Below, in pieces: positions 51,850-63,475 of a stretch of DNA of 64,000 nucleotides; the first letter of the stretch is position 1, and each line of letters opens with the position of its first letter. The notes below the pieces were generated by a model. The model saw only the letters and a list, made by a program, of their open reading frames with translations. It ran no database searches and had not been told where the DNA came from. The DNA lies in contig NZ_JAVDYG010000001.1 in NCBI RefSeq assembly GCF_031458325.1, positions 1,116,001 through 1,180,000 on the forward strand, read 5' to 3'. A program made the translations under genes and the position numbers. The DNA is from Nocardioides marmoribigeumensis. GTDB taxonomy: Bacteria; Actinomycetota; Actinomycetes; Propionibacteriales; Nocardioidaceae.

Positions 51850-54800
51850 TCAGAAACCGAGGCGCTGCCGGTAGCCCTCGAGCCAGGCGACGTAGAGGTC
51901 CCAGCCCTGCGCCGACGCGACCGCCAGGGCACGGTCGGCGAGCCCCGCGGCCCGCTCGGTCTCACCGAGGAGCGCCTCGAGCAGCGCGAGGTAGCCGTCC
52001 ACCGGGCCGTACATCAGCGAGATCCCGGCGACCACCATCCGGCCCTCGAGCGGCCGGAGGGCCTCGCGGGCGCGGCGGGCGCGGTCGAGGTCGCCGAGCG
52101 CGGCCGCGAGCTCGGCGTCGGCGGCGTCGTCGGCCGGGCTGCTCCAGGTCGCGGGCTCGGGCGCGTAGCCGTCGATCTCGGCGAGGAACCCGGGCAGCTC
52201 CGGGCGTTCGAGGCGGGCCAGGAGGTGGAGCAGCGAGCCGCGCATGATGTCCCCGCCGGGCATCGCGGCCGCGGCCAGCGCCATCTGGAGCACGCCCTCG
52301 TCGACCTCGCCGCTCCAGAACCCAGCGATCAGCCCGGTGCCGAACTCGTGCATGTCCTGGCCGGGGACCTCCACCCACGACCGCAGCCGACGCAGCTCCT
52401 CGATCGCGACGGCGGCGCTGCGGGCGTCGCCACTGATCACCGCGACGCACAGGTCGATGAACGACATCGCGATGATCACGTAGGACAGGCGTCGGCGGCG
52501 CGCCTGCGCCCACGCCAGGTCGCGGTAGGTGCCGAAGGTCTCCAGGTCGCCGAGCTCGAGCGCGGTGCCCGCGACCGCGGCCGTCGACAGCGCCTCGGCG
52601 TCGGCGTCGCCCCACTCGCGGGCGGCGGCGAGGCTGCCGTGGGCCCAGCGCAGCCGGTCCTCGACGGTGCTCGGGAACCACAGCGCGATGTAGGCCGCGC
52701 GCAGCGCCCACCAGCGCAGCGCGGGGTCGCCCAGCCGCTCGGCGAGGTCGACCGTGGCGTGGGCCAGCGCCTGCCGCTCCGCGATGGCCCCGGGCAGGTA
52801 GTAGAGCTCGATCGCCAGCGCGCCCAGGAGCCGGCAGCGGTCGGCGCTGTCGGCGTCGCCCACCTCCGCCAGAGCCCAGCGCAGGTCCTCGACCACGTCC
52901 TCGTCGACCTCGTGCCACTGGCGCACGCTCCACAGCGTGAGGTGGCTCAGCGCGGCGGCCGCGCGGGCCAGCCGCGGCAGGTCGCGGTCCAGGCGGGCCA
53001 GCGAGACCGCCTCGCTCGCCGCCTCGATGACGACCTTCCAGTCCCCCAGTCGCTGGGCGTCGCGTGCGCGGCTCATCAGCAGGTCGAAGCGCTCCACCCG
53101 GGTGCCGGCGGGGTCGCGCCGGTGCGCCTCGACGGCCTGCCCCATCAACGTCATCGCCTCCTCGTGGGAGAACGCGCGCCGGGCCAGCTCGGCGGCCGCG
53201 ACGGCCGCGCGCCAGGCCCGGGCGGCGTGGGTCGGGCCGGCAGCCAGCCAGTGGGAGGCGAGCTCGGAGACCCGCTCCTGCTCGGGCACGACGAGCGCCA
53301 GGTCGGCGTCGGTCTCCAGCGCGTGCGCCACGCGGGCGTGCAGGCGGGCCCGGCGCACCGGAGGGAGCGCGCCGACCAGTGCGTCGCGGGTCAGGGCGTG
53401 GTCGAACGCCAGCCGGCCGACCTCGCGGTCGCGCACGAGCCCGAGCGCCCGGGCGTCGTCGAGCGCGCGGTCGACGGCGTCGGGATCGGCGCCCGCGGCC
53501 GCGGCGACCACCTCGAGCGAGAACTCCCGGCCGGCCACCGCCGCCTGGCGCAGGAGGTCTGCGGTCCCGTCGGGCAGCGGGTGGAGGCGCCGCAGCAGCA
53601 GCTCGCGGAGCGTGGAGGGCACCAGCTCGCCGGCGCGGGTGCGGGCCAGCTCGACCAGGAAGAACGGGTTGCCCCCGGACCGCTCGTGCCAGTTGTCGAC
53701 CTGGGCGTCGGGGACAGGCTGGTCGGCCACGTGGGCGACCAGCGCCCGGCTCTCCTCGCGCGTGAGCCCGCCCAGGTCGAGGCGGGTCGCGTGGCGGCGG
53801 GTGAGGAGCTCCTCGACGTCACCGGAGGTGCCCTCGGGCGGCGGGAACGGCCGCCGGGTCGCGAGCACCGCGAGCGCGACGCCGTCGTCCTGGGTGGCCA
53901 CCAGGTGGGCCAGCGCGCGGAGCGTGGCGCGGTCGGCCCAGTGCAAGTCCTCGAGCACGACGAGCACCGGCTGCTCGGCGGCCCACCGGCGTACGACGGT
54001 GGCGAGCGACTCCCAGGCGTCGAAGGCCGCCCGCTCGGGGTCCTCGGCGTCGGTGTCGAGACTGACCCGCGGCGGCTCCTCGGCGCGCTGCTCGGCGATC
54101 GCCCGCAGGACCGCACGCCACGGCCACAGCGGGGGCGCGCCGTCGTCCTGGGAGCACCGTCCGACGCCGACCGCGAAGCCCATCGCGCGGGCCTCGGCCA
54201 CGACCTGCTCGACCAGGCGCGACTTGCCGATGCCGGGCTCGCCGACCAGGGTCCCGAGCGCGAGGTCACCGCCGGCGGCCTGCTCGAGGAGTCCGGTCAG
54301 CGCGCGCTCCTCCGCGGCCCGCCCGACCGTCTCCCACGGGACCCGGGCGCGCGGCACCGGCCGCGTCCGGTCGAGGCGCTCCGCCGCCCGGTCAGCCGGA
54401 CGAGGCGGGCTCGGGGACCCGCGCAGCCACCGGTGCAGCGCCGGGTCCTGCTGGAGGACCGCCTGCTCGAGGTCGCGCAGCTCCTGGCCGGGGTCGAGAC
54501 CGAGCTCGTCGGCGAGGTGGGTCCGGGCCTGGCGCAGCGCGGCCAGCGCGTCGCCCTGGCGCCCGGCCCGGGTCAGGGCCAGCGCGTGCAGGGCCCACAG
54601 TCGCTCGCGCAGCGGGTGGCGGGCCGTCGCCTGCTCGGTCGCGGCCACCACGGTCGCGTGGTCGCCGAGCGCGAGGAGCCCGAGGACCCGGTCCTCCTCG
54701 GCGGTCAGCCGCAGCTCCTCCAGCGCGGCCCGCTCGGCGAGGACGTCCGGGTGGTCCGGCAGGTCGGCGTACGGCTCGCCGCTCCAGGACGCCAGTGCCT

Positions 54801-55245
54801 GCTCGAGCGCCTCGACGTGCGCGGAGACCTCGGCCCGGCTCGGCCAGCCTGCCTGGTCCCCGCCGGTGAGCTGCCCCGCCAGCGGGCCGAGCACGCGGTG
54901 GCGGCTGCGGACCACGTCGGCGAAGACGAGCGCGTCGACCGCCTCGGGCGGCAGGGCCAGCCGGTAGCCCTGGTCGGTGGTGAGCAGCGTCGTCGGTCGC
55001 TGGCGGGGTCCGAGGCCGGGCTCGAGCGCGCGGCGCAGGCCCGAGACGTAGGAGTGCAGCGACCCGTGACCGGCGCGCTGCGAGGACTCGCCCCAGACCA
55101 GGTCGAGCAGGCCGTCGGCCGAGGCGCCCTCGCGCCGCAGCACCAGCGCGGCCAGGATCGCGCGCCGCTTGCGGGCAGGGATGTCGACGGGCTGACCGTC
55201 GTCCCCCGTCACCCCGGTCGTCCCCAGCACCCTCACCCTCACCAC
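51850..55245 (-). CDS. Large AfsR/SARP-type transcriptional regulator (BTAD + NTPase)
   Basis: An 1131-residue regulator. Residues ~1-95 are an OmpR-like DNA-binding domain (PARKRRAILAALVLRREGAS; SLHSYVSGLRRALEP; TTDQGYRLALP), ~98-245 a bacterial transcriptional activation domain, and ~310-600 a STAND/AAA NTPase with P-loop GEPGIGKSR near residue 335 and Walker B VLVVLEDLHWAD. The remaining ~500 residues are TPR-like helices. GTG 55245 is chosen because TAGCCT ends six bases upstream. Three 11-bp-phased heptamers sit between it and the divergent hemerythrin gene and are its probable binding site. The signal sensed is unknown. Confidence 0.9.
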   Translation of the reverse strand: MVRVRVLGTTGVTGDDGQPVDIPARKRRAILAALVLRREGASADGLLDLVWGESSQRAGHGSLHSYVSGLRRALEPGLGPRQRPTTLLTTDQGYRLALPPEAVDALVFADVVRSRHRVLGPLAGQLTGGDQAGWPSRAEVSAHVEALEQALASWSGEPYADLPDHPDVLAERAALEELRLTAEEDRVLGLLALGDHATVVAATEQATARHPLRERLWALHALALTRAGRQGDALAALRQARTHLADELGLDPGQELRDLEQAVLQQDPALHRWLRGSPSPPRPADRAAERLDRTRPVPRARVPWETVGRAAEERALTGLLEQAAGGDLALGTLVGEPGIGKSRLVEQVVAEARAMGFAVGVGRCSQDDGAPPLWPWRAVLRAIAEQRAEEPPRVSLDTDAEDPERAAFDAWESLATVVRRWAAEQPVLVVLEDLHWADRATLRALAHLVATQDDGVALAVLATRRPFPPPEGTSGDVEELLTRRHATRLDLGGLTREESRALVAHVADQPVPDAQVDNWHERSGGNPFFLVELARTRAGELVPSTLRELLLRRLHPLPDGTADLLRQAAVAGREFSLEVVAAAAGADPDAVDRALDDARALGLVRDREVGRLAFDHALTRDALVGALPPVRRARLHARVAHALETDADLALVVPEQERVSELASHWLAAGPTHAARAWRAAVAAAELARRAFSHEEAMTLMGQAVEAHRRDPAGTRVERFDLLMSRARDAQRLGDWKVVIEAASEAVSLARLDRDLPRLARAAAALSHLTLWSVRQWHEVDEDVVEDLRWALAEVGDADSADRCRLLGALAIELYYLPGAIAERQALAHATVDLAERLGDPALRWWALRAAYIALWFPSTVEDRLRWAHGSLAAAREWGDADAEALSTAAVAGTALELGDLETFGTYRDLAWAQARRRRLSYVIIAMSFIDLCVAVISGDARSAAVAIEELRRLRSWVEVPGQDMHEFGTGLIAGFWSGEVDEGVLQMALAAAAMPGGDIMRGSLLHLLARLERPELPGFLAEIDGYAPEPATWSSPADDAADAELAAALGDLDRARRAREALRPLEGRMVVAGISLMYGPVDGYLALLEALLGETERAAGLADRALAVASAQGWDLYVAWLEGYRQRLGF

Positions 55246-55264
55246 GCGGCGAGGCTACAACGGC

Positions 55265-55293
55265 CAAGCCGCGCTCAAGCGGCGCGCAAGGGG
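55265..55293 (+). promoter_or_regulatory. Three SARP-type heptamer repeats, 11-bp phased
   Basis: CAAGCCG (55265), CAAGCGG (55276) and CAAGGGG (55287) recur at exactly 11-bp intervals. SARP regulators bind such heptameric direct repeats with 4-bp spacers, usually placing the last repeat about 8 bp before the -10. Here GACGGT (55301-55306) starts 8 bp after the last repeat, ahead of the hemerythrin gene. The repeats also cover the -35 position of the SARP gene itself. Confidence 0.65.
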
Positions 55294-55350
55294 GTCGTCC
55301 GACGGTGGTGCCACGGCGGGGACGACCCGCCCCGACCCCAGGAGTGACCG

Positions 55351-56070
55351 ATGAGCACCACCACCACCGACCGCCCCCAGCTCGACCTGCCCGGCCAGGC
55401 CCACGTCGCGAGGGGTCCGCTGGACATGACCGGGATGTACGGCATGCACTACGCCTTCCGCCGCGACCTGACCGACTTCGTCGCCGCGGCCCGGCGTACG
55501 CCGGTCGGCGAGCACGCCGTGTGGGTCGCGCTGCAGGCCCGGTGGGCCCGCTTCTTCGAGGTGCTGCACCACCACCACGAGGCCGAGGACACCCACATCT
55601 GGCCCGCCACCCGCGCCCACGCCGCCGCGCTCGGGCGTCTCGACGACGTCGCCGTGCTCGACGCGATGGAGACCGACCACGAGCAGATCGACCCCGCCCT
55701 CCAGGCGTGCACCGACGCCTTCGCGGCGATGGTCGAGCACCCGTGCACCGACCACCGCAACGCCCTCGACCTCGAGGTCACCGAGGTCCGGGAGCTGCTG
55801 GTCACCCACCTGGCCGGCGAGGAGCGCGAGGCGATCCCGCTCATCCAGGAGCTGATGACCCCCGAGGAGTGGGCGACCTCGGAGAGGGCGATCGCCAAGG
55901 AGTACGGCCTGGGGATCATCCCCTTCGCCGTGCCGTGGGTGTTCAAGGCGCTGCCGGCCGACAAGGTCGCCGAGGTGGAGCCGTTCCTCGACCTCCCCCA
56001 GCGCTTGCTCAAGCGCGTCCTCGAGCCGCGGTTCCTGCGCCGGGAGGCGGTCGCGTTCCGCTACGTCTGA
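55351..56070 (+). CDS. Hemerythrin HHE-domain protein
   Basis: A 239-residue protein with a four-helix hemerythrin-like domain. Iron-ligand candidates are His33 (GMHYAFRRDL), the HHHHEAEDTHIWP cluster (residues 73-85), METDHEQIDPAL and LLVTHLAGEEREAIP. The C-terminal ~60 residues (FAVPWVFKALPADKV) are a conserved extension of actinobacterial members. GGAGTGACC serves as ribosome-binding site. It could sense or bind oxygen or nitric oxide. Divergent to the SARP regulator and preceded by its probable boxes, it is the likely regulated gene. Confidence 0.85.
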   Translation: MSTTTTDRPQLDLPGQAHVARGPLDMTGMYGMHYAFRRDLTDFVAAARRTPVGEHAVWVALQARWARFFEVLHHHHEAEDTHIWPATRAHAAALGRLDDVAVLDAMETDHEQIDPALQACTDAFAAMVEHPCTDHRNALDLEVTEVRELLVTHLAGEEREAIPLIQELMTPEEWATSERAIAKEYGLGIIPFAVPWVFKALPADKVAEVEPFLDLPQRLLKRVLEPRFLRREAVAFRYV

Positions 56071-61098: not shown

Positions 61099-61120
61099 CC
61101 ACGTCGGTATCGTGGTGCGG

Positions 61121-63475
61121 ATGTCCACGTCCGCCCCGCGCTCCCTCGCCGACCAGCTCCGCGCCTGGTCCGTCGAGGCGCTGGCCGGGCTCCTGAGGTC
61201 GCGCCCCGACCTCTCCCTGCCCGCCCCGCAGGACTCCGGGCAGCTGGCCTCACGCGCCTCCACCCGGGCCTCGGTGATGCGGGTGCTGGACCAGCTCGAC
61301 CGCTTCGAGCTGACCGTGCTCGAGGCTCTGGCCGTGCTCGACGGACGGGCGCCCGCGTCCGACGTGGCGGCGCTGGTCAACGCCGCCCCCGACGCCGTCC
61401 ACGCCGCGCTCGACCGCCTGCTCGGCCTCGCGCTCGTGTGGGGATCGCTCGACGACCTGCGGCTGGTGGGCGCCGTCTCCGACACCCTCGGTACGACGGT
61501 CAGCGGGCTCGGACGCCCGCTGGCGCAGCTGGCCGACGGACTCGGCCCCGCACGGGTGGCCGAGGTGCTCGCCGACGCGGGCGGCTCGCCGAGCGGGGAC
61601 CGGTCGACCGACCTGGGGCGGCTGGGCGCCCTGCTGCAGGACCCGGCCCGCGTGACCGGGCTGCTGGAGGAGTGCGACGCGGCCGCCCGCGCGATGGTCG
61701 AGCACCTGGCGGCCACCGGTGCCGAGGGCGCCTCCGAGGTGGTCGGACACGTCCGGGCCGCCGACGCGCGCACGCCGGTCGAGCAGCTGCTCGCCCGCGG
61801 GCTGCTGGTGCCCGCGTCGCGGGGCAAGCTCGCGGTGCCGCGCGAGGCCGTGATCGGGCTCCGCGGCGGGCGCACGACCCCCGACCCGGTCGACGTGGCC
61901 CCGGCGCTGGCCACCGGCGAGCGCAGCGCGACGCTGGTCGACCGCGCGGCCGCCGGGGCGGCGTACGAGCTGGTCCACCGCACCGAGCTCCTCCTCGACC
62001 GCTGGGGCGAGGAGCCGCCGGGCGTCCTGCGCCAGGGCGGGCTGGGGGTCCGCGACGTGCGCACCCTCGCCGACCTGCTCCACGCCGACGAGCGCACCGC
62101 CTCCCTGGTCGTCGAGGTCGCGGCCGCTGCCGGGCTCCTCGGCCGCGGACCGGCCGGGCGGGTCGAGGACGCGTGGCTGCCCACCGACGCCTCCGACCGC
62201 TGGCGCCACCGCACCCTGGCGGAGCGGTGGGCCGACCTCGCCGACGCCTGGCTGCACACCCACCGGCTGCCCGGCCTCGTCGGCGGACGCGTGCAGGGCA
62301 AGGCGGTCAACGCCCTCGCGCCCGACCTCGCGCCCCCGTGGGCGGCCGACACCCGTCGGGCGACGCTGCACGTGCTCGCCTCGCTCGGGCCCGGGCAGGT
62401 GCTCTCCGGCGGCGACGGGCTGCCGTCGCTGGTCGCCCGCGTGCGCTGGCTGCGCCCCCGTCGCCCGACCGCGCGCGACGAGGCGGTCGCCTGGACCCTC
62501 GAGGAGGCGGCCGTGCTGGGCGTCGTCGGCCTGGGCGGGCTGGCCTCGCACGGCCGCGCCCTGCTGGTCGAGGGCCCGGCCGCAGCGGCCTCCACGCTCG
62601 CCCCGCTCATGCCCGCCCCGGTGGACCACGTGCTCCTCCAGGCCGACCTGACCGCCGTCGCCCCCGGGCCCCTCGAGCAGAAGCTCGCGCGCGACCTCGC
62701 GACCGTGGCCCACGTCGAGTCCCGTGGCGGGGCCACGGTCTACCGCTTCACCGAGGCCTCGGTGCGGCACGCCTTCGACGTCGGCTGGTCCGCCCACGAG
62801 GTCCACGAGGTGATCGGGCGGGCGGCGCGCACCGACGTGCCCCAGCCGCTGCGCTACCTCGTCGACGACGTCGCCCGCACGCACGGCACGATCCGGCTCG
62901 GCGTGGCCGAGTCGTTCGTGCGCAGCGACGACGAGGCCTCCCTCGCCGCCCTCGCGGCCTCACCCGGTCTGGGCCTGCGTCGCATCGCCCCGACGGTCCT
63001 GGTGAGCACGCTCCCCGCCGACGAGCTGCTGCCGCTGCTGCGCGAGGCCGGGGTGTCCCCGGTCATCGAGTCGGCCACCGGCGTCGTCCAGGTCGCTCCC
63101 CGCGAGGCCCACCGCGCCCGCACCGGCCTGGTCGACCCCCGCTCCCCCGCGCTCGCGGCCCGGGCGGTCTCGCGGGCGACCGCCACCGCCGCCGCGATCC
63201 GCGCCGGCGACCGCGCGGCCGCCGTACGCCCTCCGTCACGGGCCGACCGCCAGACCCCCGCCTCCGCGCTGGCGCTGCTCCGCGAGGCCGCCGAGCAGCA
63301 GGCGACCGTGGTCATCGGCTACGTCGACGACGACGGCACGATCCATGACCGCGTGGTCGACCCGATCGCCGCCGACGGGGGCCGCCTGCGGGCCTACGAC
63401 CACCGCAGCGACCGCACCCGCGCCTTCGCCGTCCACCGGATCAAGTCCGTCCGCGACGTCACCGAGCACGGCTGA
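61121..63475 (+). CDS. Helicase-associated (XPB N-terminal-like) protein with WYL-like tail
   Basis: A 784-residue protein related to the actinobacterial protein usually encoded next to the XPB-type helicase. Winged-helix repeats occur along it (RVLDQLDRFELTVLEALAVLDG; DVAALVNAAPDAVHAALDRLLGLALV), and EAWLPTDA-like and LLQADLTAVAPGPLEQKLARDL segments mark the XPB/Ssl2 N-terminal domain. The last ~75 residues (ATVVIGYVDDDGTIHDRVVDPIAADGGRLRAYDH) resemble a WYL ligand-sensing module. No helicase motifs. TATCGT ends seven bases before the ATG. It may function in DNA repair or transcription; the helicase itself would lie elsewhere. Confidence 0.82.
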   Translation: MSTSAPRSLADQLRAWSVEALAGLLRSRPDLSLPAPQDSGQLASRASTRASVMRVLDQLDRFELTVLEALAVLDGRAPASDVAALVNAAPDAVHAALDRLLGLALVWGSLDDLRLVGAVSDTLGTTVSGLGRPLAQLADGLGPARVAEVLADAGGSPSGDRSTDLGRLGALLQDPARVTGLLEECDAAARAMVEHLAATGAEGASEVVGHVRAADARTPVEQLLARGLLVPASRGKLAVPREAVIGLRGGRTTPDPVDVAPALATGERSATLVDRAAAGAAYELVHRTELLLDRWGEEPPGVLRQGGLGVRDVRTLADLLHADERTASLVVEVAAAAGLLGRGPAGRVEDAWLPTDASDRWRHRTLAERWADLADAWLHTHRLPGLVGGRVQGKAVNALAPDLAPPWAADTRRATLHVLASLGPGQVLSGGDGLPSLVARVRWLRPRRPTARDEAVAWTLEEAAVLGVVGLGGLASHGRALLVEGPAAAASTLAPLMPAPVDHVLLQADLTAVAPGPLEQKLARDLATVAHVESRGGATVYRFTEASVRHAFDVGWSAHEVHEVIGRAARTDVPQPLRYLVDDVARTHGTIRLGVAESFVRSDDEASLAALAASPGLGLRRIAPTVLVSTLPADELLPLLREAGVSPVIESATGVVQVAPREAHRARTGLVDPRSPALAARAVSRATATAAAIRAGDRAAAVRPPSRADRQTPASALALLREAAEQQATVVIGYVDDDGTIHDRVVDPIAADGGRLRAYDHRSDRTRAFAVHRIKSVRDVTEHG

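Follow-up and report, generated by a model that had tools for sequence, protein, structure and literature searches.

A predicted SARP-type operator between a large AfsR-like regulator gene and a hemerythrin gene in Nocardioides marmoribigeumensis

The window, the whole 64,000-nucleotide stretch of Nocardioides marmoribigeumensis DNA that we analysed, contains a gene for a large SARP regulator of 1131 amino acids (51850-55245, reverse strand) and, pointing away from it, a gene for a hemerythrin-domain protein of 239 amino acids (55351-56070, forward strand). Between the two genes lies a predicted SARP-type operator of three boxes (55265-55293, forward strand), recognised from its sequence, its recurrence in the genome and its conservation in relatives. 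The CAAG cores start at 55265, 55276 and 55287, an exact 11-bp period, and the heptamers are CAAGCCG, CAAGCGG, and CAAGGGG; seven bases separate the last heptamer (CAAGNNN, 55287-55293) from GACGGT, the predicted −10 hexamer of the hemerythrin promoter (55301-55306, forward strand; supported by the A and T fixed in arrays of this and other genomes), which begins on the eighth base. An earlier sequence-only reading of this DNA described three CAAG heptamers repeating at exactly 11 bp, the last of them 8 bp before GACGGT, and called this the geometry of SARP activators; the coordinates confirm the description, and the geometry agrees with published SARP operators, whose direct repeats stand 11 or 22 bp apart, the final repeat being 8 bp away from the −10 (PMC10936776; PMC5930380). 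The hemerythrin mRNA is predicted to start with the A at 55313 (forward strand), which is +7 relative to the final T of the −10, the distance at which 15 arrays have a start codon; a ribosome-binding site, AGGAG, follows at 55340-55344 (forward strand). On the reverse strand, 6 nt separate a likely −10 of the regulator gene, TAGCCT (55257-55252), from the GTG start codon at 55245, which would fall exactly at +1, so the regulator mRNA is likely leaderless; its likely −35, CTTGAG (55274-55279, reverse strand), would lie within the operator, so that array and −35 appear to overlap. Elsewhere in the window, 61112-63475 encodes a protein with Helicase_C_3 and WYL domains.

The regulator contains a BTAD domain (residues 140-264; PF03704, 109.7 bits against a cut-off of 22.1) and an AAA_16 ATPase domain (residues 307-458), and its long C-terminal half has no Pfam match. 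PHMMER matched it to AfsR (8k60, 8jke, and 8hvr, E about 1e-24) and EmbR (2fez, E 7e-28); residues 6-360 align with AfsR, and the alignment places an OmpR-type DNA-binding region at the N-terminus. Trans_reg_C was found in all seven linked homologues scanned; Pfam, at E 0.001, did not report it for the window regulator. The protein thus combines the N-terminal OmpR-type DNA-binding region and the BTAD domain that define SARPs, and its description as a giant AfsR-like regulator stands. The further label of a STAND-type regulator is only partly borne out: Pfam gave AAA_16, and neither of the features that characterise AfsR-type large SARPs, NB-ARC/NOD and TPR, was found at E 0.001; the Pfam architecture is BTAD plus AAA_16, with no GerE. 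A scan of the genome contigs with the regulator retrieved only three distant relatives.

The hemerythrin-domain protein (PF01814, 49.9 bits against a cut-off of 25.3) has the conserved histidines and glutamates of an HHE domain: H33, H75, H76, E79, H110, H153, E157, and E158 are invariant among 40 aligned hemerythrins, and these eight residues are probably the iron ligands. Its structural model is all helical (pLDDT 95.9). Foldseek of the model against the PDB gave nothing at E 0.001 (the best match was 3cax, E 0.052), and the sequence alone matched no PDB chain at E 0.1; a profile search weakly matched YtfE and FBXL5 (E 4e-5 to 2e-3).

We searched for the three-box pattern (CAAGN7CAAGN7CAAG) in the window and in the 4.44-Mb genome. 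It occurs once in the 64-kb window against 0.00 expected (100 shuffles), and at 11 sites in the genome against none for the backwards pattern. The version with a 10-bp period (N6) has no genome match and its reversed control has one; the version with a 12-bp period (N8) has 31, and its reversed control seven. The 12-bp matches look like in-frame lysine (AAG) codons, 12 being a multiple of 3; a triple CAAG is therefore no proof by itself, and it is the 11-bp phase together with the fixed −10 that identifies the array. Counted from the first C, the base at offset 37 is A in 10 of this genome's 11 sites and that at offset 41 is T in all 11; these correspond to the A at −11 and the T at −7 in a −10 of the sigma-70 type.

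To follow the array in relatives, we searched for the hemerythrin in 294 genomes of the family, at least 133 of which had a match, and fetched 100 loci: every strong-class match listed other than the window (74, counting L106), six intermediate ones, and a hand-picked set of 20 weak ones; the held-out counts leave out the window, L106, and L178 (own genome). A matrix was built from the 11 own sites, and an array was defined as a score of at least 14 on the hemerythrin strand within 2.6 kb upstream, a threshold picked after a first look at the loci. Such arrays were found upstream of 54 of the 73 subfamily loci from other genomes (49 at a score of 16, and 45 at 20). They accompany 51 of the 59 loci with an adjacent BTAD regulator and 3 of the 14 without one (Fisher p = 5e-6); 8 of the 19 subfamily loci lacking an array at score 14 do have the regulator. 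The comparison of related genomes that had been proposed as a check thus came out in favor of a predicted SARP operator linking the AfsR-like regulator to the hemerythrin gene: the array reads toward the hemerythrin and is kept with the gene pair. The reversed matrix gave 0 of 73 subfamily loci upstream and 2 of 73 anywhere, shuffled upstream stretches gave arrays in 0 to 2 of 73 per round (20 rounds), and the own-site matrix found arrays at none of 19 weakly related and none of six intermediate hemerythrin loci. The twentieth weak hemerythrin, that of L178, has both regulator and array, which makes the weak class 1 of 20 when it is included. A search by repeats only (CMAG three times in 11-bp phase, 2.6 kb upstream) recovered an array at 38 of the 73 subfamily loci; the opposite strand gave 4 of 73, the reversed form 2 of 73, and the control hemerythrins 0 of 19. 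Its 41 matches in other genomes have A in 37 and T in 38 at the −10 positions, and the four without A (three also without T) are, by eye, reads one unit off in four-box arrays. The boxes share a conserved flank (CAAG followed by Y, S, G), and variants of the array, distinguished by the middle box (CAAG, CCAG, or GGAG), follow the regulator clades.

Comparison of the hemerythrin and SARP-domain distances revealed a correlation (rho 0.57, 61 pairs, reached in 0 of 1000 permutations; L092, which has a partial regulator, and L143 were omitted), and 39 of the 61 hemerythrin nearest neighbors fall among the three nearest by regulator; shared species history contributes to this co-variation, which is not independent proof. 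Among 91 matrix matches (five without an ORF, and some of them shifted duplicates), a simple ORF picker placed the start codon at +7 from the −10 T in 15, at +8 in three, at 28-57 in 58, and at 5, 6, or 9-14 in none. Such a distribution is compatible with leaderless transcripts for some of the genes and, for others, the window's hemerythrin among them, with leaders of the usual kind.

Beyond the family, a class-wide search of 394 genomes led to 14 stretches that we examined together with L215 from the same order. The regulator adjoins a hemerythrin in five of these 15 (L201, L203, L205, L207, and L215); an array lies upstream in L201, L203, and L205, L215 carries no more than two boxes, on the opposite strand, and L207 has no array. 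L204 has an array and no regulator within the stretch. We also observed three-box sites that resemble one another, roughly CAAGNNANCNTCAAG...TCAAG in form, in ten genomes of one genus from the same order (G062, G067, G070, G072, G078, G083, G085, G093, G095, and G097), and a run of more than three CAAG boxes in 11-bp phase in another order-level relative (G068:C13:152847-152905).

The sequence-only reading took a single hemerythrin to be the apparent target, which proved too narrow given 11 exact sites in this genome and MMPL exporters as a recurrent second target. The genome encodes nine hemerythrins, and four of the nine adjoin a BTAD gene and an array: three of these four have an exact site, and the fourth (2150106) has a site with one mismatch. 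For the remaining five, the array score within about 1.5 kb is at most 4.4. Other targets of the genome's arrays include a FAD-binding oxidoreductase, a glyoxalase-family protein, and a large RCC1/PKD protein (by Pfam), as well as proteins that lack a clear Pfam match and a DUF7218 protein with its start at a distance of 116 nt. One region (L216, genome 1910000-1929000) has three arrays around one BTAD regulator; they precede a 186-aa protein without Pfam match, a FAD oxidoreductase, and a glyoxalase-family protein. At another position (L005:1170, genome 2994006, reverse strand), a CCAG-type array is divergent from a further BTAD gene, and its −10 T is followed by an ATG at precisely +7.

An array directly precedes an MMPL gene of one type in 24 loci, 19 of them with the MMPL upstream of the hemerythrin and five with it on the far side of the regulator (MMPLs were recognised by BLAST and by an N-terminal motif that they have in common, and Pfam was applied to two, the L100 MMPL and the own MMPL). 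In the present genome, an MMPL exporter gene at 1950109 (L217:5110-7352) has an exact three-box array, lies well away from all hemerythrins found, and shares 49-63% identity with the array-preceded MMPLs of relatives; in relatives this MMPL type is kept before the hemerythrin or beside the regulator. As judged from these sequences, MMPL exporters are a second recurrent target of the array.

What the sequences themselves show is the array, the −10, the constant spacing between the two, their association with SARP genes and their conservation. From this we propose, with a probability of roughly 85%, that the array serves as operator for an activator-dependent hemerythrin promoter, bound by the neighboring SARP and belonging to a small regulon. 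Two or three protomers of the large SARP would bind the 11-bp repeats between −48 and −16 and recruit RNA polymerase to a −10 that retains the essential A(−11) and T(−7) and lacks a conserved −35; hemerythrin transcription would begin at 55313. The same switch would serve a small regulon within the genome, comprising the 11 exact sites, among them those of three of the four regulator-linked hemerythrins and of an MMPL exporter; its role might be, as a guess, stress-related control of an exporter and a di-iron protein.

It is unlikely that the array is bound by another OmpR-family protein or by another SARP of the genome, the neighbor being incidental. Seven SARPs exceed the Pfam cut-off in this genome and the boxes at their loci are alike, so the cognate protein is not certain; furthermore, five of the 11 sites (loci L012 and L016-L019) have no SARP or BTAD gene nearby. 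Phosphate response regulators likewise use 11-bp repeats. These points are outweighed by the association, in relatives, between arrays and SARP genes, by the co-variation of regulator and hemerythrin, and by the finding of an array beside the gene or a close neighbor at six of the seven SARP loci (four exact, one with one mismatch, and one CCAG-type); the sole exception is the locus at 922756, where a scan of 1.5 kb on each side found no array. In addition, the CAAG core is common to the CGGCAAG heptamer reported for PimR, SanG, and PolR (PMC5930380). The neighboring SARP is thus our preferred candidate, its assignment to this site among the seven being a matter of probability.

A separate question is the signal, and we consider it improbable that the regulator senses oxygen or nitric oxide, as the sequence-only reading suggested. 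In its favor, some hemerythrin-like proteins are reported to react with NO and peroxide (PMC8913304), and the predicted regulon of OsdR, a dormancy regulator of Streptomyces coelicolor and a different regulator, includes a hemerythrin-domain gene (PMC5069765). However, Pfam detected no haem, PAS, GAF, or Fe-S domain in the regulator, and a gas is not what the recurring MMPL partner would suggest. Moreover, one clade links the same output to a histidine kinase and a receiver-SARP, which replace the ATPase-type SARP (L128:6094-9431, L140:2167-3414, and L142:2458-5565). The L128 and L140 regulators consist of an OmpR-type domain, BTAD, and a receiver domain, and in L128 and L142 a histidine kinase (HisKA_3 and HATPase_c, with membrane segments by eye) lies between regulator and hemerythrin; no sensor domain was found in this kinase by Pfam. 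Output and operator are thus kept in the receiver-SARP clade, and the sensor is different. A short regulator with part of AAA_16 in another locus (L139) may be a fragment.

More doubtful still is the view that the array is mainly autoregulatory, with the regulator binding its own −35 region and activating or repressing itself. The sequence-only reading had held that the array covers the regulator's −35 region and implies autoregulation: the overlap is indeed present in the window, where the boxes fall on what could be the −35 of a leaderless promoter for the regulator, so that autoregulation may occur locally, but conserved autoregulation is not supported by the layouts of 63 pairs (the own-genome loci and L156 included), in which an array faces the regulator in three only. 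All three are among the seven tandem-upstream pairs, where an array on the regulator's own strand scores 14.4 to 18.1; there are none in 14 divergent, 39 convergent, and three tandem-downstream pairs. Upstream of the hemerythrin unit, an array is present in 13 of the 14 divergent pairs, 31 of the 39 convergent ones, all seven tandem-upstream ones, and all three tandem-downstream ones. The distance from array to regulator varies (7-97 bp in 12 divergent loci and 2,249 bp in L095; L156 has no array), whereas that to the hemerythrin −10 is constant, and PimR, equally divergent from its target, is reported not to be autoregulated (PMC3367932). We therefore rejected autoregulation as a conserved role; since arrays precede the hemerythrin and rarely face the regulator, the conserved target is the hemerythrin unit.

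Chance or low-complexity repeats in GC-rich DNA, suggested by the 31 matches of the 12-bp version, are rejected with near certainty by the window shuffles, by the absence of matches to the reversed 11-bp pattern and the 10-bp version, and by the fixed −10 and conservation, which far exceed the shuffled upstream stretches.

The recurrence of this switch before hemerythrin and exporter genes in many related actinobacteria suggests that activators of this family control a conserved programme besides antibiotic production. At about even odds, we would extend this to a general picture: SARPs would run a conserved non-antibiotic regulon (hemerythrin and MMPL, sometimes a flavin oxidoreductase) in one family, probably Nocardioidaceae, and in some other actinobacterial families, with cassette and output fixed, the sensor swapped between the ATPase half and a histidine kinase with receiver-SARP, and some of the mRNAs leaderless. 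SARPs are mainly studied in antibiotic clusters; an operator resolved to the base across hemerythrin and MMPL genes would make non-antibiotic SARP regulons predictable from sequence, and sensing by large SARPs becomes open to a clean test, the output being known and the sensor half differing among relatives.

A non-exhaustive search of the open-access literature gave no link between SARPs and hemerythrins among the matches listed; one candidate paper (PMC12756255) was rejected, the “BTAD” in its record being part of the journal DOI. A review of SARPs describes mainly secondary metabolism, and also mentions AfsR homologs in development and likely effects of CpkO and CpkN on stress response and dormancy (PMC10972967), so a role outside antibiotic production has precedents among SARPs. 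A figure legend names MMPL and hemerythrin genes, the pair shared with the present system, among the neighbors of crtR in carotenoid operons of actinobacteria; the relevant passages of that paper describe crtR as a MarR-type regulator with carotenoid genes and mention no SARP (PMC5401885). The mycobacterial hemerythrin-like NO peroxidases resemble the window protein in being of the hemerythrin type, with a di-iron site of His and Glu (PMC8913304); in the window protein the ligand set is putative. They differ from it in that the window hemerythrin has no PDB chain match at E 0.1.

EmbR of Mycobacterium tuberculosis, the best match among solved structures, is like the window regulator a SARP fold outside antibiotic synthesis, with different targets. 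It is described as having an FHA domain where the window regulator has the ATPase (PMC10936776). AfsR is likewise a large SARP with a nucleotide-binding domain, and its afs box, at −40 to −19, occupies the same zone as the window operator (PMC10936776); it differs in its NB-ARC domain, as against AAA_16 by Pfam, and in target and box sequence. PimR combines a SARP domain with a LAL-like half that lacks the LuxR HTH, an HTH that the window regulator lacks as well, and its operator at pimM has, like that of the window, three heptamers (CGGCAAG) with 4-bp spacers and a CAAG core in a divergent intergenic region (PMC5930380; PMC3367932). Unlike the window operator, that of PimR is reported not to overlap the −35 of its target and to act inside an antibiotic cluster; the window boxes cover about −48 to −16, carry the flank CAAG-Y,S,G in place of CGGCAAG, and have a hemerythrin gene as their target.
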